A DNA stretch of 51,193 nucleotides, from NCBI RefSeq assembly GCF_022808695.1, contig NZ_JAKZKW010000020.1, positions 21,010-72,202 of the forward strand. The letters run 5' to 3'. The DNA is from Fundidesulfovibrio soli. Lineage in GTDB: Bacteria; Desulfobacterota; Desulfovibrionia; Desulfovibrionales; Desulfovibrionaceae. Positions 27,932 to 35,356 of the stretch are shown here, piece after piece. Position 1 is the stretch's first letter. Every line of letters begins with the position of its first letter. The notes under the pieces are model-generated. The model made no database searches and was not told where the DNA came from. It saw only the letters and a list, made by a program, of their open reading frames with translations. A program made the position numbers and the translations under genes.

Positions 27932-27974
27932 GAGGTTGCCTCCGATTGGCTTCGGTTGATTCTGTTCGTTCGGG

Positions 27975-28077
27975 CCTTCCGCCTCCTCCCCCGGCCCCTG
28001 CACCCCGGGGCACGCCGATATATTTGAAGAATATCGTCGCGCCCCGGGGTGCAGGGGCCGGGAGAGGAGGCGGAAGG
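27975..28077. repeat. Long hairpin A1 with conserved AT-rich centre
   Basis: Arms 27975-28011 and 28041-28077 are complementary at 36 of 37 positions. The 29-base centre contains a nested CGATAT/ATATCG stem around ATTTGAAGA. It fills the trpB-trpA gap. Centre sequence is shared with hairpins at 30160, 35027 and 35253, whereas the arms are not. Confidence 0.9.
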
Positions 28078-28175
28078 CGTCCGGGCGTCACTCTGGGTTG
28101 TGATCGGCCCTGGCGGTCCTTACGGATTGCGCGGGGTGTAGCATGAACGCGGGGCGGCTGAAATACCGCTCCCGG

Positions 28176-29354
28176 TCAGCAGCCCTTCCTGGCCTCGTAC
28201 TCCTCGATGATGCCGATGTCCTTGTCGCCGCGTCCGGAGAGGCAGACCAGCACGTCGCTGCCCTTGGGGATCTCCGCCGCGTTCTCGATGGCCCAGGCCA
28301 CCGCGTGGGAGCTTTCAAGCGCCGGGATGATGCCCTCGGAGCGGCTGAGCGTGTGGAAGGCGCTCAGCGCCTGGCCGTCGTTGACGGTGACGTAGCGGGC
28401 GCGGCCGCAGTCCTGCAGGTGGGCGTGCTCGGGGCCCACGCCGGGGTAGTCCAGGCCGGGGGCGATGGAGTGCGAGGGCTCGATCTGGCCGTCCTCGGTC
28501 TGCAGGAGCATGCTCATGGCCCCGTGCAGCACGCCGGGCGTGCCAAGATTCAGGGGCGCGGAGTGGTGGCAGCCCGGCTCGCCGGTGCCAGCGGCCTCGA
28601 CGCCGATGAGCTGAACGCCCTCGTCGGGGATGAATTCGTTGAAGGCGCCGATGGCGTTGGAGCCGCCGCCCACGCAGGCCACCACATAGTCGGGCAGCTT
28701 GCCCGCTTTCTTGAGCATCTGTGCCCGGGCCTCCCGGCTGATCACGGACTGGAACATGCGCACCAGCGTGGGGAAGGGGTGCGGCCCGGCCGCCGTGCCG
28801 AAGCAGTAGTGGGTGGTGCGCTGGTCCGCGATCCAGCGGCGCAGGGCCGCGTTGATGGCGTCCTTCAGGGTCTTGGTGCCGGACTCGATGGGCACCACCG
28901 TCGCGCCCAGCAGGCCCATGCGCCGTACGTTGTGGGACTGGCGCACAACGTCCGTGGCGCCCATGTAGACTACGCACTCCAGGCCGAGCATGGCCGCCGC
29001 CGTGGCCGTGGCCACGCCGTGCATGCCCGCGCCCGTCTCCGCCAGGAGCACCTTCTTGCCCATGTGCCTGCACAGCAGGCCCTGGCCCAGGGCGTTGTTG
29101 ATCTTGTGCGCGCCGGTGTGGTTCAGGTCCTCGCGCTTGAGCCAGAGGTTGAAGCCCAGTTTCTTGGAGAGGTTGGGGCAGCGGTACAGGGCCGAGGGGC
29201 GGCCCACGTAGTCCTCCAGCATGGCGTTGAATTCTTTCTGGAAAGCCTCGCCGGGCACGATGGTGTTCATGGCCTCCTCGATCTCCAGGAGGGGAGGCAT
29301 GAGCAGCTCCGGCACGAACATGCCGCCGAACGATCCGAAATAACCTTTCTGCAT
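28176..29354 (-). CDS. trpB: Tryptophan synthase beta subunit
   Basis: A 392-residue PLP enzyme condensing indole with serine. The Schiff-base lysine is in NHTGAHKINN, the phosphate loop is GGGSNAIGAF, and the catalytic Glu is in LLAETGAGMHG. Full length for the TrpB1 type that pairs with TrpA. It begins 12 bases after trpF and ends 98 bases before hairpin A1. Confidence 0.97.
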   Translation of the reverse strand: MQKGYFGSFGGMFVPELLMPPLLEIEEAMNTIVPGEAFQKEFNAMLEDYVGRPSALYRCPNLSKKLGFNLWLKREDLNHTGAHKINNALGQGLLCRHMGKKVLLAETGAGMHGVATATAAAMLGLECVVYMGATDVVRQSHNVRRMGLLGATVVPIESGTKTLKDAINAALRRWIADQRTTHYCFGTAAGPHPFPTLVRMFQSVISREARAQMLKKAGKLPDYVVACVGGGSNAIGAFNEFIPDEGVQLIGVEAAGTGEPGCHHSAPLNLGTPGVLHGAMSMLLQTEDGQIEPSHSIAPGLDYPGVGPEHAHLQDCGRARYVTVNDGQALSAFHTLSRSEGIIPALESSHAVAWAIENAAEIPKGSDVLVCLSGRGDKDIGIIEEYEARKGC

Positions 29355-29366
29355 GGGTGGTAGCCT

Positions 29367-29990
29367 CTATTTGCTGCGTGCTGCGATGTCGATGGTTTGC
29401 GAAACCTTGTCCAGGTCCTTGACGCCGGGCGCGGTCTCGACCCCGGAATTGATGTCCAGTCCGGCGGGGCGGGCCAGCTCAAGCGCCTCCTGGGCGTTGA
29501 GCGGGGAAAGGCCGCCCGCCAGCAGCCACGGCCGGGGGACCTTGAGCCCGGCCAGGGCGGAAAAATCCAGGCTTGTGCCGTGGCCCCCGCCCGAGGCGCC
29601 CGCGTCCAGGAGCATCATGGCGCAGGAGTCCGCGAAGCGGGCCAACTCGGCTTCGAGTTCGGCAAGCGAGGCGTGACGCTGGGGCCAGAAGGCCCGAATG
29701 ACGCGCTCCGGGCCGATCTCGCGGCAGAAGGCCTCGTCCTGCCCGGCGTGGAGCTGGGCGAAGTCCAGCCCGGCCTCGTCCATGATGGAGAGGACTTCCG
29801 CGGCGGACTGCTCCACGAACACGCCCACGCGCCTGGCCCGCCCGCGCGCGATGGAGGCCACGTGGCCGGGCGTGACGCATCGGGGGCTCTTGGCGGCGAA
29901 GATGAAGCCCAGGAAGTCCGCGCCCAGGGCGTCTATGGCGGCCACCTGCTCGGGCAGGGTCATGCCGCAAACTTTTATCAGCGGTCTCAC
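29367..29990 (-). CDS. trpF: Phosphoribosylanthranilate isomerase
   Basis: A 207-residue TIM-barrel isomerase. Signature segments are IKVCGMT, VGVFVEQ, GGHGTSLDFSAL, LAGGLSPLN and GLDINSGVE. I set the start at the GTG at 29990, preceded by AAGGA, because the upstream in-frame ATG (30107) would translate the composite repeat. It is preceded by 357 bases of repeat-filled spacer and followed closely by trpB. Confidence 0.93.
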   Translation of the reverse strand: MRPLIKVCGMTLPEQVAAIDALGADFLGFIFAAKSPRCVTPGHVASIARGRARRVGVFVEQSAAEVLSIMDEAGLDFAQLHAGQDEAFCREIGPERVIRAFWPQRHASLAELEAELARFADSCAMMLLDAGASGGGHGTSLDFSALAGLKVPRPWLLAGGLSPLNAQEALELARPAGLDINSGVETAPGVKDLDKVSQTIDIAARSK

Positions 29991-30017
29991 ATTGAATCCT
30001 TTCGTGGAGGGGGTGGC

Positions 30018-30099
30018 CTCCGGCGGCCAGGGGCGCCGCCCCTGGACCCCGCCAAAGGGAGTTCCTCCCTTTGGAATCCCATTCAGCTTCGCGTTCACA
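30018..30099. repeat. Composite hairpin repeat copy III
   Basis: The order is CTCCGGCGGCC, a GC hairpin CCAGGGGC-GCC-GCCCCTGG, GACCCCG, the hairpin CCAAAGGGAG-TTC-CTCCCTTTGG, AATCCC and GCTTCGCGTTC. The same order occurs at 13280-13364 and 17014-17100 with arm bases changed in compensating pairs. Confidence 0.8.
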
Positions 30100-30159
30100 A
30101 GCGGCACTTCGCTGCACTCTCGATGGCCCTGCTTTCAACTTGCCGCGATTGTCCGGTCC

Positions 30160-30250
30160 GTCTCCGCCTGGGGCGTCCGCCGCGCGCCGATGACAGATAT
30201 TATTCAAATATATCGGGCGTCTGCGCGCGGTGGGCGCCCCAGGCGGAGAC
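30160..30250. repeat. Long hairpin A2 with conserved AT-rich centre
   Basis: Arms 30160-30187 and 30223-30250 match at 26 of 28 positions (GTCTCCGCCTGGGGCG at the outer end is perfect). The centre read on the minus strand is CGATATATTTGAATAATATC, the same motif as in A1, A3 and A4 but in the opposite orientation to A1 and A3. Confidence 0.88.
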
Positions 30251-30280
30251 TACAAACCAATAAATTCTTTACCATTGCGG

Positions 30281-30337
30281 GGTCCGGGGGGATCATCCCC
30301 CCGGCGGGGGCCAGGGGGCAGCGCCCCCTTCTTCCGT
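30281..30337. repeat. GATCATC hairpin repeat copy 2
   Basis: GGGGTCC, then CCGGGGGGAT-C-ATCCCCCCGG, then GGCGGGG and a second GC hairpin, ending CCTTCT. Copy 1 at 17161-17215 has the same frame, but an A/T pair in the stem where this copy has G/C. Confidence 0.75.
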
Positions 30338-30347
30338 CGCTCCGGCT

Positions 30348-31115
30348 CTACCTTCTTCCCGTCAGCCCGGCCAGGGCCGCCCCCGGGTCCTCCCCGCTCA
30401 TGAGCGAGGTGCCCACCAGAACGGCGTCGTAGCCCAGCGCGGCCATTCGCTCCACGTCCGCGCGCGTCTTTATCCCGCTGGCGCTGATCCAGATCTGGCC
30501 TTCCTGCTTGCGCGCGGCCAGCCGCTCGGACACGGCGAAATCCGTGGTCAGCTTGTCCAGGTCGCGGTTATTCACCTGGATGATCTCGGGCTCCAGGGGC
30601 TCCACCTTGTCAAGGTCGGCCTCGTCGAACACCTCCACCACACAGGCCAGCCCGAAGGCTTCGGCCAGGCCCAGCATGGCGCGCAGCTCGTCAGCCTCGC
30701 TCATGCGCGCGATGAGCAGCAGGGCCGAGGCAGGGGTGGAGGCCGTGTGGATCACCTGCACGGGGTGCAGGATGAAGTCCTTGCGGAGCAGGGGCAGGCC
30801 CGCACCGGCCATGCGCGTCAGGTACTCCAGGCTGCCCTTGAAGTAGGCCTCCTCCGTGAGCACGGACATGGCCGCGGCCCCGGCCTTCCTGTAGGACTCG
30901 GCCGCCTGCTCGGGCGTGAGGCCCATGTTGATCTCCCCGCGCGAGGGCGAGGCCCGCTTGTATTCGGCGATCACCGCACCGGGGCCGTTCTCCCACAGGG
31001 CGCGGATGAAGTCCGGGCGTTCGCCCTCGAAGGGCGGGGGCATCAAGCCCTCGTCCTCCAGCTTGACGAGGCGCTCGATCTCGGCCTGCTTGGCTTCGCG
31101 GAATCGGTTAAGCAT
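30348..31115 (-). CDS. trpC: Indole-3-glycerol-phosphate synthase
   Basis: A 255-residue TIM-barrel enzyme. Key motifs are AEYKRASPSRG (catalytic Lys), LLRKDFILHP (Lys), EVFDEADL (Glu), VNNRDL and ISASGI. It is a single-function TrpC not fused to TrpF. The start overlaps the trpD stop by 8 bases (ATGCTTAA), so translation is probably coupled. Confidence 0.96.
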   Translation of the reverse strand: MLNRFREAKQAEIERLVKLEDEGLMPPPFEGERPDFIRALWENGPGAVIAEYKRASPSRGEINMGLTPEQAAESYRKAGAAAMSVLTEEAYFKGSLEYLTRMAGAGLPLLRKDFILHPVQVIHTASTPASALLLIARMSEADELRAMLGLAEAFGLACVVEVFDEADLDKVEPLEPEIIQVNNRDLDKLTTDFAVSERLAARKQEGQIWISASGIKTRADVERMAALGYDAVLVGTSLMSGEDPGAALAGLTGRR

Positions 31116-32106
31116 TGGTCAGCTGGCTCCAGAAGCTGGAGGCCGCGCGGGAGGCGATGGCGTCGCGGGCCTTGTCGATGCCCTGCTTGAGCGACAGGCC
31201 GGGCTCCAGCAGGTGCAGGGCGGTGCCCAGGTTCAGGGCCAGCATGTCCTTCATGGCCTGGGGACCGTCGCCCTGGATCAGCTCGATGAGCACGGCCACG
31301 GCTTCGTCCTTGCTGGCCACGGCAACATCGGAGAGCTTGTGGCGCGGGATGCCGTAGTCCTCGGGCTCGATGCGGTCGCGGCGCATCCAGCCGTCGCGCA
31401 CCCAGCAGACCTCAGCCGGGCCGAAGGGCGAAAGCTCGTCGAAGCCGCCCGCGCCGTGCACCACTGCGGCGTTGCGCACGCCCGTGAGCGAGAGCGCCTC
31501 CGCGATGAGCGGCACGAAGGAGGCCGTGGGCACGCCCAGCAGCTGGTGCGTGGGGCGGGCGGGGTTGAGCAGAGGGCCCATGAGGTTGAAGAGGGTGCGC
31601 GCGCCCAACTCCTTACGGATGGGCATGATGCGCTTGAAGGCCGGGTGGAAGTTGGGCGCGAACAGGAACACGAAGTTGCGCTGGGCCAGGGCGTCGGCCA
31701 CGGCGTCGGGCTCAACGGTGAGGCCAACGCCCAGCGACTCCAGCACGTCGGCCGAGCCGCAGGTGGAGGACACGGAGCGGTTGCCGTGCTTGACCACCTT
31801 GTGCCCCAGCGCGGCCAGGTACATGGCCACGGCGGTGGAGCAGTTGAAGGAGCAGGTGTTGTCGCCGCCGGTGCCGCAGGTGTCTATGCGGTCGCCCTCG
31901 AGGCCGGGCACCAGGCGGGCCTCCTCCAGGGCGGCCTTGACGCCGCAGGCGATCTCAAGCCCGGTCTCGCCCTTGGTCTTGAGGCCCATGAGGAACGCGC
32001 CCACGCAGGAGGCGGGCATCTCGCCCTTGTACATGGCGCGGAACGAGGTCAGCGCCTGTTCTTCGGTCAGGTTCTTGCCTATGGCCAGATGTTCGAGGAC
32101 TTCCAT
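31108..32106 (-). CDS. trpD: Anthranilate phosphoribosyltransferase
   Basis: A 332-residue enzyme transferring the phosphoribosyl group from PRPP to anthranilate. DTCGTGGDNTCSFNCST (PRPP loop), KHGNRSVSSTCGSADVLESLG and LFNLMGPLLNPA are all present. AGGAG precedes the ATG at 32106; the frame is open to 32172 but lacks a ribosome site there. It lies 72 bases after the DUF2971 gene and overlaps trpC. Confidence 0.96.
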   Translation of the reverse strand: MEVLEHLAIGKNLTEEQALTSFRAMYKGEMPASCVGAFLMGLKTKGETGLEIACGVKAALEEARLVPGLEGDRIDTCGTGGDNTCSFNCSTAVAMYLAALGHKVVKHGNRSVSSTCGSADVLESLGVGLTVEPDAVADALAQRNFVFLFAPNFHPAFKRIMPIRKELGARTLFNLMGPLLNPARPTHQLLGVPTASFVPLIAEALSLTGVRNAAVVHGAGGFDELSPFGPAEVCWVRDGWMRRDRIEPEDYGIPRHKLSDVAVASKDEAVAVLIELIQGDGPQAMKDMLALNLGTALHLLEPGLSLKQGIDKARDAIASRAASSFWSQLTNA

Positions 32107-32178
32107 CGCGGGCTCCTTCTTCTCTATCGTTTCGGCCGCGTCCGCTGCGGCCGCCTCTTCACGCCGGTTCAACCCGGG

Positions 32179-32913
32179 CTACTTGCTCATCACCGGACAG
32201 TTGAACAGCGTCGACCTGCTGACCCTGTCCGAAAGACCCTCCCGCTTGATGATGGAGAGCGACAGTTCGTACTGCCAGGGCTCGGAGAGGGGCGAGACGT
32301 AGATGCTCTCGATGATGTGCGCCGGTTCCACGTTTATGTGCAGGCCGGCGGCGTCCAGAAGCCTGGGGTTCTGTTCGCCGCTGTCGTTGATGTAGATCAG
32401 CCGGAACTCCTTCTCGTGCTCGAAGGGCCTGCGCTTGAGCAGGGAGAAGTCGTAGATGTCGCTGATCTGGCAGTCGTCCTGGGCCACGTCCTTGTAGAGC
32501 ACCTTGCCCGCGGTGAGGTCGTGGGGCGCAAGCTCGCTCACCAGCGCCCCGAAGGTGGTCTGCACGGCGATGGAGTGGCCGCTGCCGCCGAAGAGCTTCC
32601 ACATGGCCTCGGACTCGTGCTCGCTCACGTGCCAGGAGTTCACGAACACCTTGGAGCGCTCGTTGTTGATGTAGTCGTCGTGGCGCTTCAGGAAACGCTT
32701 CCAGCTCTCCGGGCTCGCCTCGTCCCTGGCGGTGGCGTACATGCCCGGGGGCATCAGACACTCGTAGGGGTCGTGCAGCTTGTCCACGCGGCGGAAGTAC
32801 AGACGCTTCATGAGCAGGAAGTCGAGGAACTTCTCGAACGTCAGGTACTTCCACAGGGTGGTTTCGCTCTCGGCCTTGTCGCCGTTGGAGAGGTTGCGGA
32901 TGGAAAGCGGCAT
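32179..32913 (-). CDS. DUF2971-family protein inserted between trpG and trpD
   Basis: A 244-residue soluble protein with the DUF2971 pattern: WKYLTFEKFLDFLLMKRLYFRRVDKLHDPYEC at the N-terminus and VNSWHVSEHESEAMWKLFGGSGHSIAVQTT in the middle (only parts of these stretches are strictly conserved). The family is of unknown function and is usually found singly or near defence and mobile genes. Here it lies 12 bases after trpG and in the direction of the operon, so it is co-transcribed with tryptophan biosynthesis. No strong ribosome site is seen before the ATG. GC content matches its neighbours, so the insertion is not recent. Confidence 0.8.
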   Translation of the reverse strand: MPLSIRNLSNGDKAESETTLWKYLTFEKFLDFLLMKRLYFRRVDKLHDPYECLMPPGMYATARDEASPESWKRFLKRHDDYINNERSKVFVNSWHVSEHESEAMWKLFGGSGHSIAVQTTFGALVSELAPHDLTAGKVLYKDVAQDDCQISDIYDFSLLKRRPFEHEKEFRLIYINDSGEQNPRLLDAAGLHINVEPAHIIESIYVSPLSEPWQYELSLSIIKREGLSDRVSRSTLFNCPVMSK

Positions 32914-32925
32914 GGCTGCTTCGCG

Positions 32926-33478
32926 CTAGGCGATCTTCTCCGGGAAATTCTTGAGCAGCTTCATGCCGTCCGGCGTGAGCACGCTCTCAGGGTGGAACTG
33001 CACCCCCACCCAGGGGCGATCCTTCCACCTGAGCCCCATGACCTCGTTCTCGTCGGTCCAGGCGGTGATCTCCAGCTTCTCCGGGGCCTTGTGCGCCAGA
33101 ACGAGCAGCGAGTGGTACCGGCAGACCTCCATGGGGTTGGGCACGCCCTCGAAGAGCCCCGTCTCCCGGTGGGTCACCTGGCTGGTCTTGCCGTGCATGA
33201 TCCTGTCCGCCACAACCACGGGCGCGCCCGCGTAGTGCCCCAGGATCTGGTGCCCCAGGCACACGCCAAGCAGCGGCGTCTTCTTGGGCAGGTGCTCCAG
33301 GAACTCCAGGCACAGCCCGGCGTTCTCCGGCCTGCTGGGGCCGGGGGAGATGCAGCAGCGCTCCACCTTGCCGGACTTGGCCAGCTCGATGATCTCCGGG
33401 TCGTCGTTGGTCTTGACCACGGGGGCCAGCCCGAGCTGCTGGAAGTACTGCACCAGATTGAAGGTGAACGAGTCGAAG

Positions 33479-33498
<20 letters not shown>
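32926..33498 (-). CDS. trpG: Anthranilate synthase glutaminase subunit
   Basis: A 190-residue class I glutamine amidotransferase that supplies ammonia to TrpE. The nucleophile Cys is in GVCLGHQILGHYAG and the His/Glu pair is in QFHPES; the N-terminus MFLLVDNFDSFTFNLVQYF is standard. AGGAGG lies upstream of the ATG. The start lies inside the trpE reading frame (20-base overlap), consistent with stoichiometric synthesis of the complex. Confidence 0.96.
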
Positions 33499-34891
<1,393 letters not shown>

Positions 34892-34954
34892 GGCGCGTCC
34901 TTGTCGTAGTCGTTGCGTCGTTTCGTTTTATGTCGTCCAAGCGTGCCGGGGAAG

Positions 34955-34993
34955 GCCTCCGGCGGCCAAAGGGAGTTCCTCCCTTTGGAATCC
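34955..34993. repeat. Composite hairpin repeat, partial copy IV
   Basis: CCTCCGGCGGCC is followed directly by CCAAAGGGAG-TTC-CTCCCTTTGG (sharing the CC) and AATCCC. Compared with copy III it lacks the first GC hairpin and the GCTTCGCG tag, as if internally deleted. Confidence 0.75.
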
Positions 34994-35026
34994 CACGGTA
35001 TGGGATGGTCCTATCGTTTCGAGGCT

Positions 35027-35114
35027 GTGCCCGGCCCTGTCCCGCTCGTTGGTGAAATGCCATATATTTGAAGAAAATGGCCTTTCACCTTCCTCGCGGG
35101 ACAGGGCCGGGCAC
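35027..35114. repeat. Long hairpin A3 with conserved AT-rich centre
   Basis: The outer arms 35027-35045 and 35096-35114 are a perfect 19-base match. The inner arms GGTGAAA/TTTCACC and GCCAT/ATGGC also pair. The centre is CCATATATTTGAAGAAAATGG, close to A1 and A4. Confidence 0.9.
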
Positions 35115-35252
35115 CGGCGCGTCACCGCGTTTTCAATCACCTGCGGTTGGATTCTTTCTGACTCGCATCCAACCGTGCGGGCTGACCACCGCAGTGCCTG
35201 CCGTTCACGACCAGAGCGATCATTGGGCGGCATCCAACCGTGCGGCCTGGGT

Positions 35253-35335
35253 CCGTGGTGCCCCTCCGGCAGCCGCGCCCGGGTCATATTCTTCAAATAT
35301 ATGGCACGGGTGCGGCTGCCGGAGGGGCACCACGG
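35253..35335. repeat. Long hairpin A4 with conserved AT-rich centre
   Basis: Arms 35253-35276 and 35312-35335 are a perfect 24-base match. Inner CCCG/CGGG and CATAT/ATATG pairs follow. On the minus strand the centre is CCATATATTTGAAGAATATG, matching A1 and A3 while the arms are unrelated. Confidence 0.9.
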
Positions 35336-35356
35336 GCCGTTATGAAAAAGAAACCC

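Follow-up and report, generated by a model that had tools for sequence, protein, structure and literature searches.

We analyzed a stretch of 51,193 nucleotides from the genome of Fundidesulfovibrio soli (the window), in which four long hairpins lie among the trp genes, and found that these hairpins belong to a family of palindromes dispersed over the genus. All seven Fundidesulfovibrio genomes contain matches, and the family shows a conserved apical loop (ATNNGAAGA), a long stem, arms that vary in sequence while remaining complementary, and an intergenic placement that avoids divergent promoters. We propose that it is a new interspersed non-coding palindrome, similar in kind to the repetitive extragenic palindromic (REP) and enterobacterial repetitive intergenic consensus (ERIC) elements, which is spread by an enzyme, whose arms are kept matched by template switching and whose loop is constrained. 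We put the probability of this reading at roughly 0.6. A search of the literature turned up no description of this hairpin family.

Under this proposal, some enzyme would have spread the copies. DNA polymerase would switch template between the arms during replication, copying one arm onto the other and sometimes inverting the centre, and this would be the main cause of arm matching. The loop would be retained because something reads it, be it a mobilising enzyme or a factor of the host. Once transcribed, the element would form a very stable hairpin at the 3' end of a gene or between cistrons, and it could affect mRNA stability in the manner of ERIC.

A dispersed hairpin family with a shared loop

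The genome of F. soli (4.0 Mb, 41 contigs) is denoted G000, that of Fundidesulfovibrio agrisoli SG106 G001, and those of the other congeners G002-G006; L-numbers denote fetched loci. Each hairpin consists of a 9-nt loop, a short apical stem of about five positions, usually an internal loop (inner positions 6-8 are frequently unpaired), and then a long stem. The typical unit in F. soli and F. agrisoli is 41+9+41 bp (91 bp). The 71 hairpins that lie inside contigs and have stems of at least 12 bp, a set that includes one chance match (L095), had a median stem of 41 bp, and many stems were exactly 40-41. The loop is ATTTGAAGA in the majority of copies and ATCGGAAGA in some, and it is closed by GATAT/ATATC, GACAT/ATGTC or ATATC, GATGT/ACATC, or CTGT/ACATC, among other forms. 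Many copies bear a tail like GGCGCGGTTCACCGCG on the loop strand's 3' side; members of the CTGT subfamily have a longer one. Another repeat, GGGATTCCAAAGGGAGGAACTCCCTTTGGCCGCCGGAGGC with its variants, was seen on either strand at positions 34960-34997 and 30050-30085 of the window and in many flanks, often beside CTGT-type hairpins.

The 17-nt core ATATATTTGAAGAATAT, with up to three mismatches, was found at 77 places in F. soli, 60 in F. agrisoli and 8 in G002, compared with one place in each for the reversed control. The preliminary description had placed all of the hairpins inside an aromatic operon. This holds for the window, where they accompany trp genes, aroA and a prephenate dehydrogenase domain, but the operon is not special given the 77 places genome-wide. 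The arms had also been called unrelated between loci, which is too strong: 54 copies could be aligned in 93 columns with a mean column identity of 69%, although the median pairwise difference between arms was 0.53. Of 56 ATTTGAAGA occurrences in motif-fetched F. soli loci, 49 had gapless arms. The other seven comprised two at contig ends, two under covariance-model matches (L010, L021), and three without a hairpin, so that a centre without arms does occur in a few cases.

A covariance model built from the 54 copies had matches in 7 of the 39 genomes searched, all seven congeneric (98 in G000, 90 in G001, 15 in G002, and 1, 2, 3 and 1 in G003-G006), and none in the other 32. Palindromes score on both strands, so these counts are not copy numbers. 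The model gives the G003 form low scores and the pattern searches were exact, so more distant relatives may have escaped detection. The first closing form, with any base allowed at two variable loop positions, was found in 3 of 288 genomes of the family. Another closing form, CCG-ATTTGAAGA-CGA (an exact 16-nt pattern), was found in 4 of 348 genomes of the order, at 10 places in G002, 36 in G003, 2 in G005 and 12 in G006. Fifteen of these places were folded (6, 2 and 7 in G003, G005 and G006), and all gave long hairpins except the first place in L276, which was truncated, and L259, at a contig end. The truncated copy (L276:1500, in G006) has kept the loop and 5' arm, with no matching 3' arm. 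In G004, the hairpin loops were ATGTGAAGA and ATTTGAAGA, the latter a weak match. The loop is thus common to the genus, with closing pairs and arms varying by species. As a control, we collected 93 stretches of public genomes containing the 19-nt core. Twenty were from F. agrisoli, with stem scores of up to 36, while the best score among the remaining 73 was 10, with two at 8 or above; 16 viral stretches reached at most 6, with none at 8 or above.

None of 68 elements overlapped a called gene, the gene caller being a simple home-made codon-usage script. Among gaps of at least 120 bp, those with an element were co-directional in 40 cases, convergent in 24 and divergent in 1, compared with 62, 14 and 41 for gaps without one. 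The divergent share (1 of 65 versus 41 of 117) gave a Fisher p of 2e-8, which is understated, since the test pooled the syntenic copies from both species.

Pairing of the arms and compensated changes

The arms remain complementary while their sequence drifts. In the alignment of the copies (A1, from which L084 was excluded), 88.5% of 2210 cells were paired, compared with 60.5% after shuffling (0 of 500 shuffles as high) and 37-44% when the alignment was slid. Paired cells changed on both sides numbered 566, versus 163 in shuffles; 39 of the 42 pairs had changes on both sides, and a gap-free recount agreed with this covariation.

The same was seen at sites shared between F. soli and F. agrisoli. 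Fifteen sites with similar flanks contained 36 double changes from one Watson-Crick pair to another, 3 double changes of other kinds, and 63 single changes. These came from 22 aligned orthologue candidates, of which pair counts used 15 (with L001/L053, which has an indel and contributed 20 positions only) or 14 (without L001). The excluded pairs were L024/L045 (inverted), L030/L059, L036/L066, L088/L062, L089/L075, L008/L051 and L039:2585/L076, for reasons of inversion, truncation, indels or doubtful orthology; L095 and the contig-end hairpins (18 in G000, 12 in G001) were also dropped from the pair statistics. At the ten sites classed as true orthologues, a set in which L028/L074 ranks second and the hairpin at 35066 is too short for ranking, 11 double changes were found. 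Permutation gave a mean of 0.9 and a maximum of 3 in 2000 when one third of coincidences were taken as paired, and a mean of 2.7 and a maximum of 9 when all were counted. The compensatory changes expected at orthologous sites, had pairing itself been maintained, were therefore present, as the preliminary description had surmised.

This excess of compensated changes is what template switching should produce, and selection would give the same excess. It is conceivable that selection alone is at work, with the element acting as an RNA hairpin that protects or processes mRNA 3' ends and its pairs restored one base at a time. The strong covariation, the intergenic and non-divergent placement, and the barely changed loop would all suit such a role, and Yersinia ERIC elements are reported to influence mRNA stability (PMC2229807). 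The double changes, however, comprised 22 of transversion type and 15 of transition type, compared with 28 and 27 among the single changes (14 sites). The ratio is alike in the two, giving no sign of the G-U stepping stone, and this lack of transition enrichment speaks against restoration base by base.

Strand asymmetry bears on the same alternative. In co-directional gaps, the transcript corresponds to the strand opposite the loop in 29 of 43 cases (for G000 by itself in 15 of 22, a weak bias, p 0.13). A.C mismatches are commoner than G.T mismatches on the loop strand, 112 to 24 in 64 elements (60 to 5 at positions 1-10 and 52 to 19 at positions 11-41), which corresponds to a G.U excess on the opposite strand and would favour an RNA made from it. 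The excess was nevertheless not reversed by the direction of neighbouring genes: by gene context, the ratios were 25 to 6, 10 to 3 where the loop strand is the transcript, and 12 to 9, a weak excess, in convergent gaps. Together with the tolerance of centre inversions and absences described below, this makes selection alone unlikely in our view, though an explanation to be reckoned with.

Centre inversions also point to copying between arms. We examined 25 pairs (the 22 candidates plus L083, L084 and L003) and found the centre inverted, with the outer arms colinear, in two. In L024/L045, the band at positions 7-12 matched 12 of 12 when inverted versus 8 when colinear, and the bands beyond 30 were colinear; in L084/L217, the signal was weaker. 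The orientations of L036/L066 also differ, its orthology being doubtful, and L009/L041 and L015/L047 are contig-end pairs. Template switching between the arms of inverted repeats is described as homogenising arms and inverting spacers (PMC8604942, PMC8794818). Such switching during replication accords with both the double changes, which lack a transition excess, and the two centre inversions, and the earlier suggestion of a copying mechanism between arms thus gained support.

Hairpins of the trp region

The four hairpins of the window and their loops are as follows.

27974-28078, plus strand: hairpin 1, in the trpB/trpA gap, with 48-bp arms that are 94% complementary; the genes run on the minus strand
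28022-28030, plus strand: loop of hairpin 1, the conserved 9-nt ATTTGAAGA
30160-30250, minus strand: hairpin 2, in the trpC/trpF gap, with 41-bp arms that are 85% complementary
30201-30209, minus strand: loop of hairpin 2, ATTTGAATA, a variant by one base
35020-35121, plus strand: hairpin 3, upstream of trpE, with an outer block of about 19-26 bp (the 26-bp block 88% complementary), a mismatched middle and an inner 15-bp stem
35066-35074, plus strand: loop of hairpin 3, ATTTGAAGA, capping the inner 15-bp stem
35250-35338, minus strand: hairpin 4, with 40-bp arms that are 90% complementary; its loop is 224 bp from that of hairpin 3, in the opposite orientation
35290-35298, minus strand: loop of hairpin 4, ATTTGAAGA
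35116-35132, plus strand: possible 3' tail after hairpin 3, resembling the family tail GGCGCGGTTCACCGCG; a weak resemblance, read by eye

All four had been described at these places, and the arms proved longer than first given. The shared centre was likewise found in both orientations, in the order +, -, +, -, with ATTTGAAGA in three hairpins and ATTTGAATA in one. As RNA, hairpins 1 to 4 fold with energies of -112.1, -78.2, -68.5 and -75.3 kcal/mol (z -17.9, -11.9, -9.3 and -11.0), and in each case 0 of 200 shuffles folded as well. The genes around them, all on the minus strand, were assigned with Pfam to trpE, trpG, trpD, trpC, trpF, trpB, trpA, aroA and a protein with a prephenate dehydrogenase domain. 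Between trpD and trpG, a 244-aa protein (32179-32913), also encoded on the minus strand, had no Pfam match.

An Rfam search of the window returned one tRNA and nothing else. On the coding minus strand, none of the four hairpins is followed within 10 nt by a run of four or more T, and this absence rules out canonical intrinsic terminators at these copies.

The sites of hairpins 1, 3 and 4 are also occupied in F. agrisoli (L042:11190, with compensated changes, L042:3244 and L042:3014, respectively). Hairpin 2 is missing from the syntenic place, along with about 350 bp of intergenic sequence. The trpB-trpA gap of G002 contains a hairpin that is closed in the other form. In G003-G006, trpB adjoins trpA, yet there was no ATNNGAAGA motif between them.

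Hairpins of this kind might be suspected of being foldback artefacts of libraries or assembly. Of nine N runs in the fetched loci and the window, six are no farther than 150 bp from a loop, in zones that make up 5.5% of the bases; contig ends cluster at hairpins; and G/C homopolymer debris stands beside some copies. We consider this origin scarcely credible, because shared-site hairpins with compensated differences occur in syntenic positions of separately assembled species and the loop is common across the genus. The short-read assembly of F. soli breaks at hairpins, which helps explain the breaks in these genomes. At least 28 of its 82 contig ends are about 60 bp or less from a core motif, and F. 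agrisoli shows the same tendency. At the window's left edge (1-130) and in L255, G and C runs beside a 10-N gap look like sequencing or scaffolding debris.

Turnover, spread and relation to known elements

We compared the arms at shared sites with all other copies. Where the sites are of the GATAT or GACAT type, no copy was closer than the syntenic one (arm difference 0.05-0.23), which means that arms there drift at about the rate of the flanks. Fifteen F. soli sites were also probed by their flanks; L027, L031, L033, L037 and two L040 sites gave no call (split contigs, a single flank or rearrangement). In L035/L213, the hairpin is missing and the tail is kept, with GGAG at the junction. In L092/L219, a unit of about 147 bp is missing, with GGCG at both ends, which is compatible with target duplication or with a slippage deletion. 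L017/L210 has lost its centre by an internal deletion in F. agrisoli. The L083, L084 and L003 sites are occupied in both species, while at L022, L081 and L086 the species differ over longer stretches. The changed or absent elements may reflect either losses or gains; some cases look like loss of the hairpin only.

These sites bear on the proposal, made in the preliminary description, that each hairpin was built in place by local inverted duplication around a seed palindrome. At first look, the arms do seem locus-specific. But the hairpin-less sister sites (L035/L213, L092/L219) contain neither arm, an arm consensus is common to the 54 copies, and a 3' tail is common to many, which makes such an origin highly improbable.

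The alternative offered beside it, a mobile palindrome family, fared better. In G002, hairpin-bearing stretches at different places (L239, L240, L245) are 92-95% identical, and it is this, with the copy number, that leads us to infer spread. Among 15 F. soli places with a CTGT-type tail (up to three mismatches), 6 had a core hairpin on the tail's side, and C1:402756 had a hairpin with the loop ATTAGAAGA; 6 of the 15 had no nearby model match, and C1:503520 and C9:76075 look like remnants in alignments. Different genes lie between the paired elements in each case (L012, L039, L004, L040), and thus no carrier transposon came to light.

Alternatively, the arms and loop might be kept solely because a transposase or recombinase acting on single-stranded DNA requires the hairpin in its folded state. 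Loops and irregularities in the stem are recognised by Y1 transposases (PMC8266576), and the similar G002 stretches and the 147-bp unit flanked by GGCG would suit an active transposon. However, no match to PF01797 was found in the seven genomes, GTAG was present in just 9 of 70 feet, and covariation persists in old copies at shared sites, something that transposition by itself would not require. We regard this explanation as rather unlikely.

Several observations weigh against our proposal of an enzyme-spread palindrome with arms matched by template switching. PF01797 (Y1/RAYT transposase) was found at E 0.001 in 0 of 7 genus genomes and in 5 of 14 known genomes used as a control; the search for transposase and reverse-transcriptase families covered this one alone. 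No transcript was found, and no clean target-site rule emerged from 8 aligned sites. At three CTGT-type sites (L004/L072, L039/L078, L090/L069), the syntenic copy was not the nearest (difference 0.34-0.41, ranks 9 to 29) although the 200-nt flanks were 84-95% identical, which suggests replacement or exchange of whole elements or arms. Mismatches near the loop persist (C.T at position 4 in 29 of 71 hairpins, C.A at position 6 in 19 of 71), and homogenisation of the arms should erase them, unless copying spares the tip or selection retains them. Nor does template switching predict the A.C excess, which RNA from the opposite strand or strand-biased deamination might explain. The trpB-trpA hairpin fails as a fixed regulatory position, being present in G000, G001 and G002 only, with the motif missing in G003-G006. 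The inflated significance of the divergent-gap comparison belongs here too, as does the case for the loop: in 16 shared hairpins, it changed at 1 of 144 positions, compared with 13 of 160 in the apical stem and 316 of 2028 in the flanks, a contrast inflated because the motif, with up to three mismatches in 17, had served to fetch most of the loci in both species. Three sites located by their flanks kept the hairpin: L083/L216 with the loop intact, L003/L220 with the nonamer intact and one adjacent base lost, and L084/L217 with one change. The sharing of the loop across the genus is the stronger argument for its conservation, though it was likewise found by motif. The retained mismatches near the loop, and the loop itself, need an extra factor, most simply recognition of the tip.

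Among known systems, REPs and REPINs are likewise intergenic palindromes with tens to hundreds of copies and species-specific variants. Stem length, foot tag and the transposase result rule out REP membership: published stems are 5-13 bp (GTAG) and 8-9 bp (CGTC) (PMC3733652), versus a median of 41 bp here; the GTAG/CGTC tag is absent in most copies (among 70 5' feet, GTAG 9, CGTC 4, GGAG 7, TGAG 5); and the Y1 transposase family (RAYT/TnpAREP) was not found. In the Fundidesulfovibrio family, moreover, it is the loop that is best conserved while the arms drift. ERIC (IRU) and YPAL of enterobacteria and RPE of Rickettsia are palindromes of about 105-168 bp, mainly intergenic, whose transcripts form long stem-loops, with mobilising transposases hypothesised without experimental support (PMC2229807). 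They were described from other taxa, and the same source lists ERIC with terminal repeats of 7 bp and TA at its ends (PMC2229807). The ERIC consensus is 127 bp, a unit size different from that of the 91-bp hairpin here (about 147 bp with the tail at L092). Miniature inverted-repeat transposable elements have terminal inverted repeats with a target-site duplication; the arms here are terminal inverted repeats, and one of 8 aligned sites (L092/L219) has GGCG at both ends, as either a duplication or a slippage deletion could leave. Arm homogenisation, compensated changes and spacer inversion are shared with template-switch (quasipalindrome) mutation (PMC8604942, PMC8794818); that is a general process at inverted repeats, which here would act on a dispersed family with a conserved loop.

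Mitochondrial double-hairpin elements are also mobile palindromes with covarying stems; they are mitochondrial and of another size and sequence. The Fundidesulfovibrio element is of the broad REP/ERIC-like interspersed-palindrome kind, with its conserved sequence in the loop rather than the stem.

The family is a further genus-specific repeat, one whose tip is strongly conserved and for which no mobilising enzyme is known. Template switching itself is already known. Whether long stems that drift in sequence stay paired through stepwise selection or through one-step copying is an open question, and dozens of hairpins of the same design make both comparable, since compensated changes, centre inversions and absences are visible at many sites shared by sister species. 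A bolder and unlikely possibility is a mobile palindrome addressed by its loop, in which an enzyme or host protein would recognise the folded ATNNGAAGA tip while the arms would need complementarity only and be continually re-copied from each other. If so, the family would represent a class of bacterial interspersed element that, unlike REPs, carries its identity in the loop.

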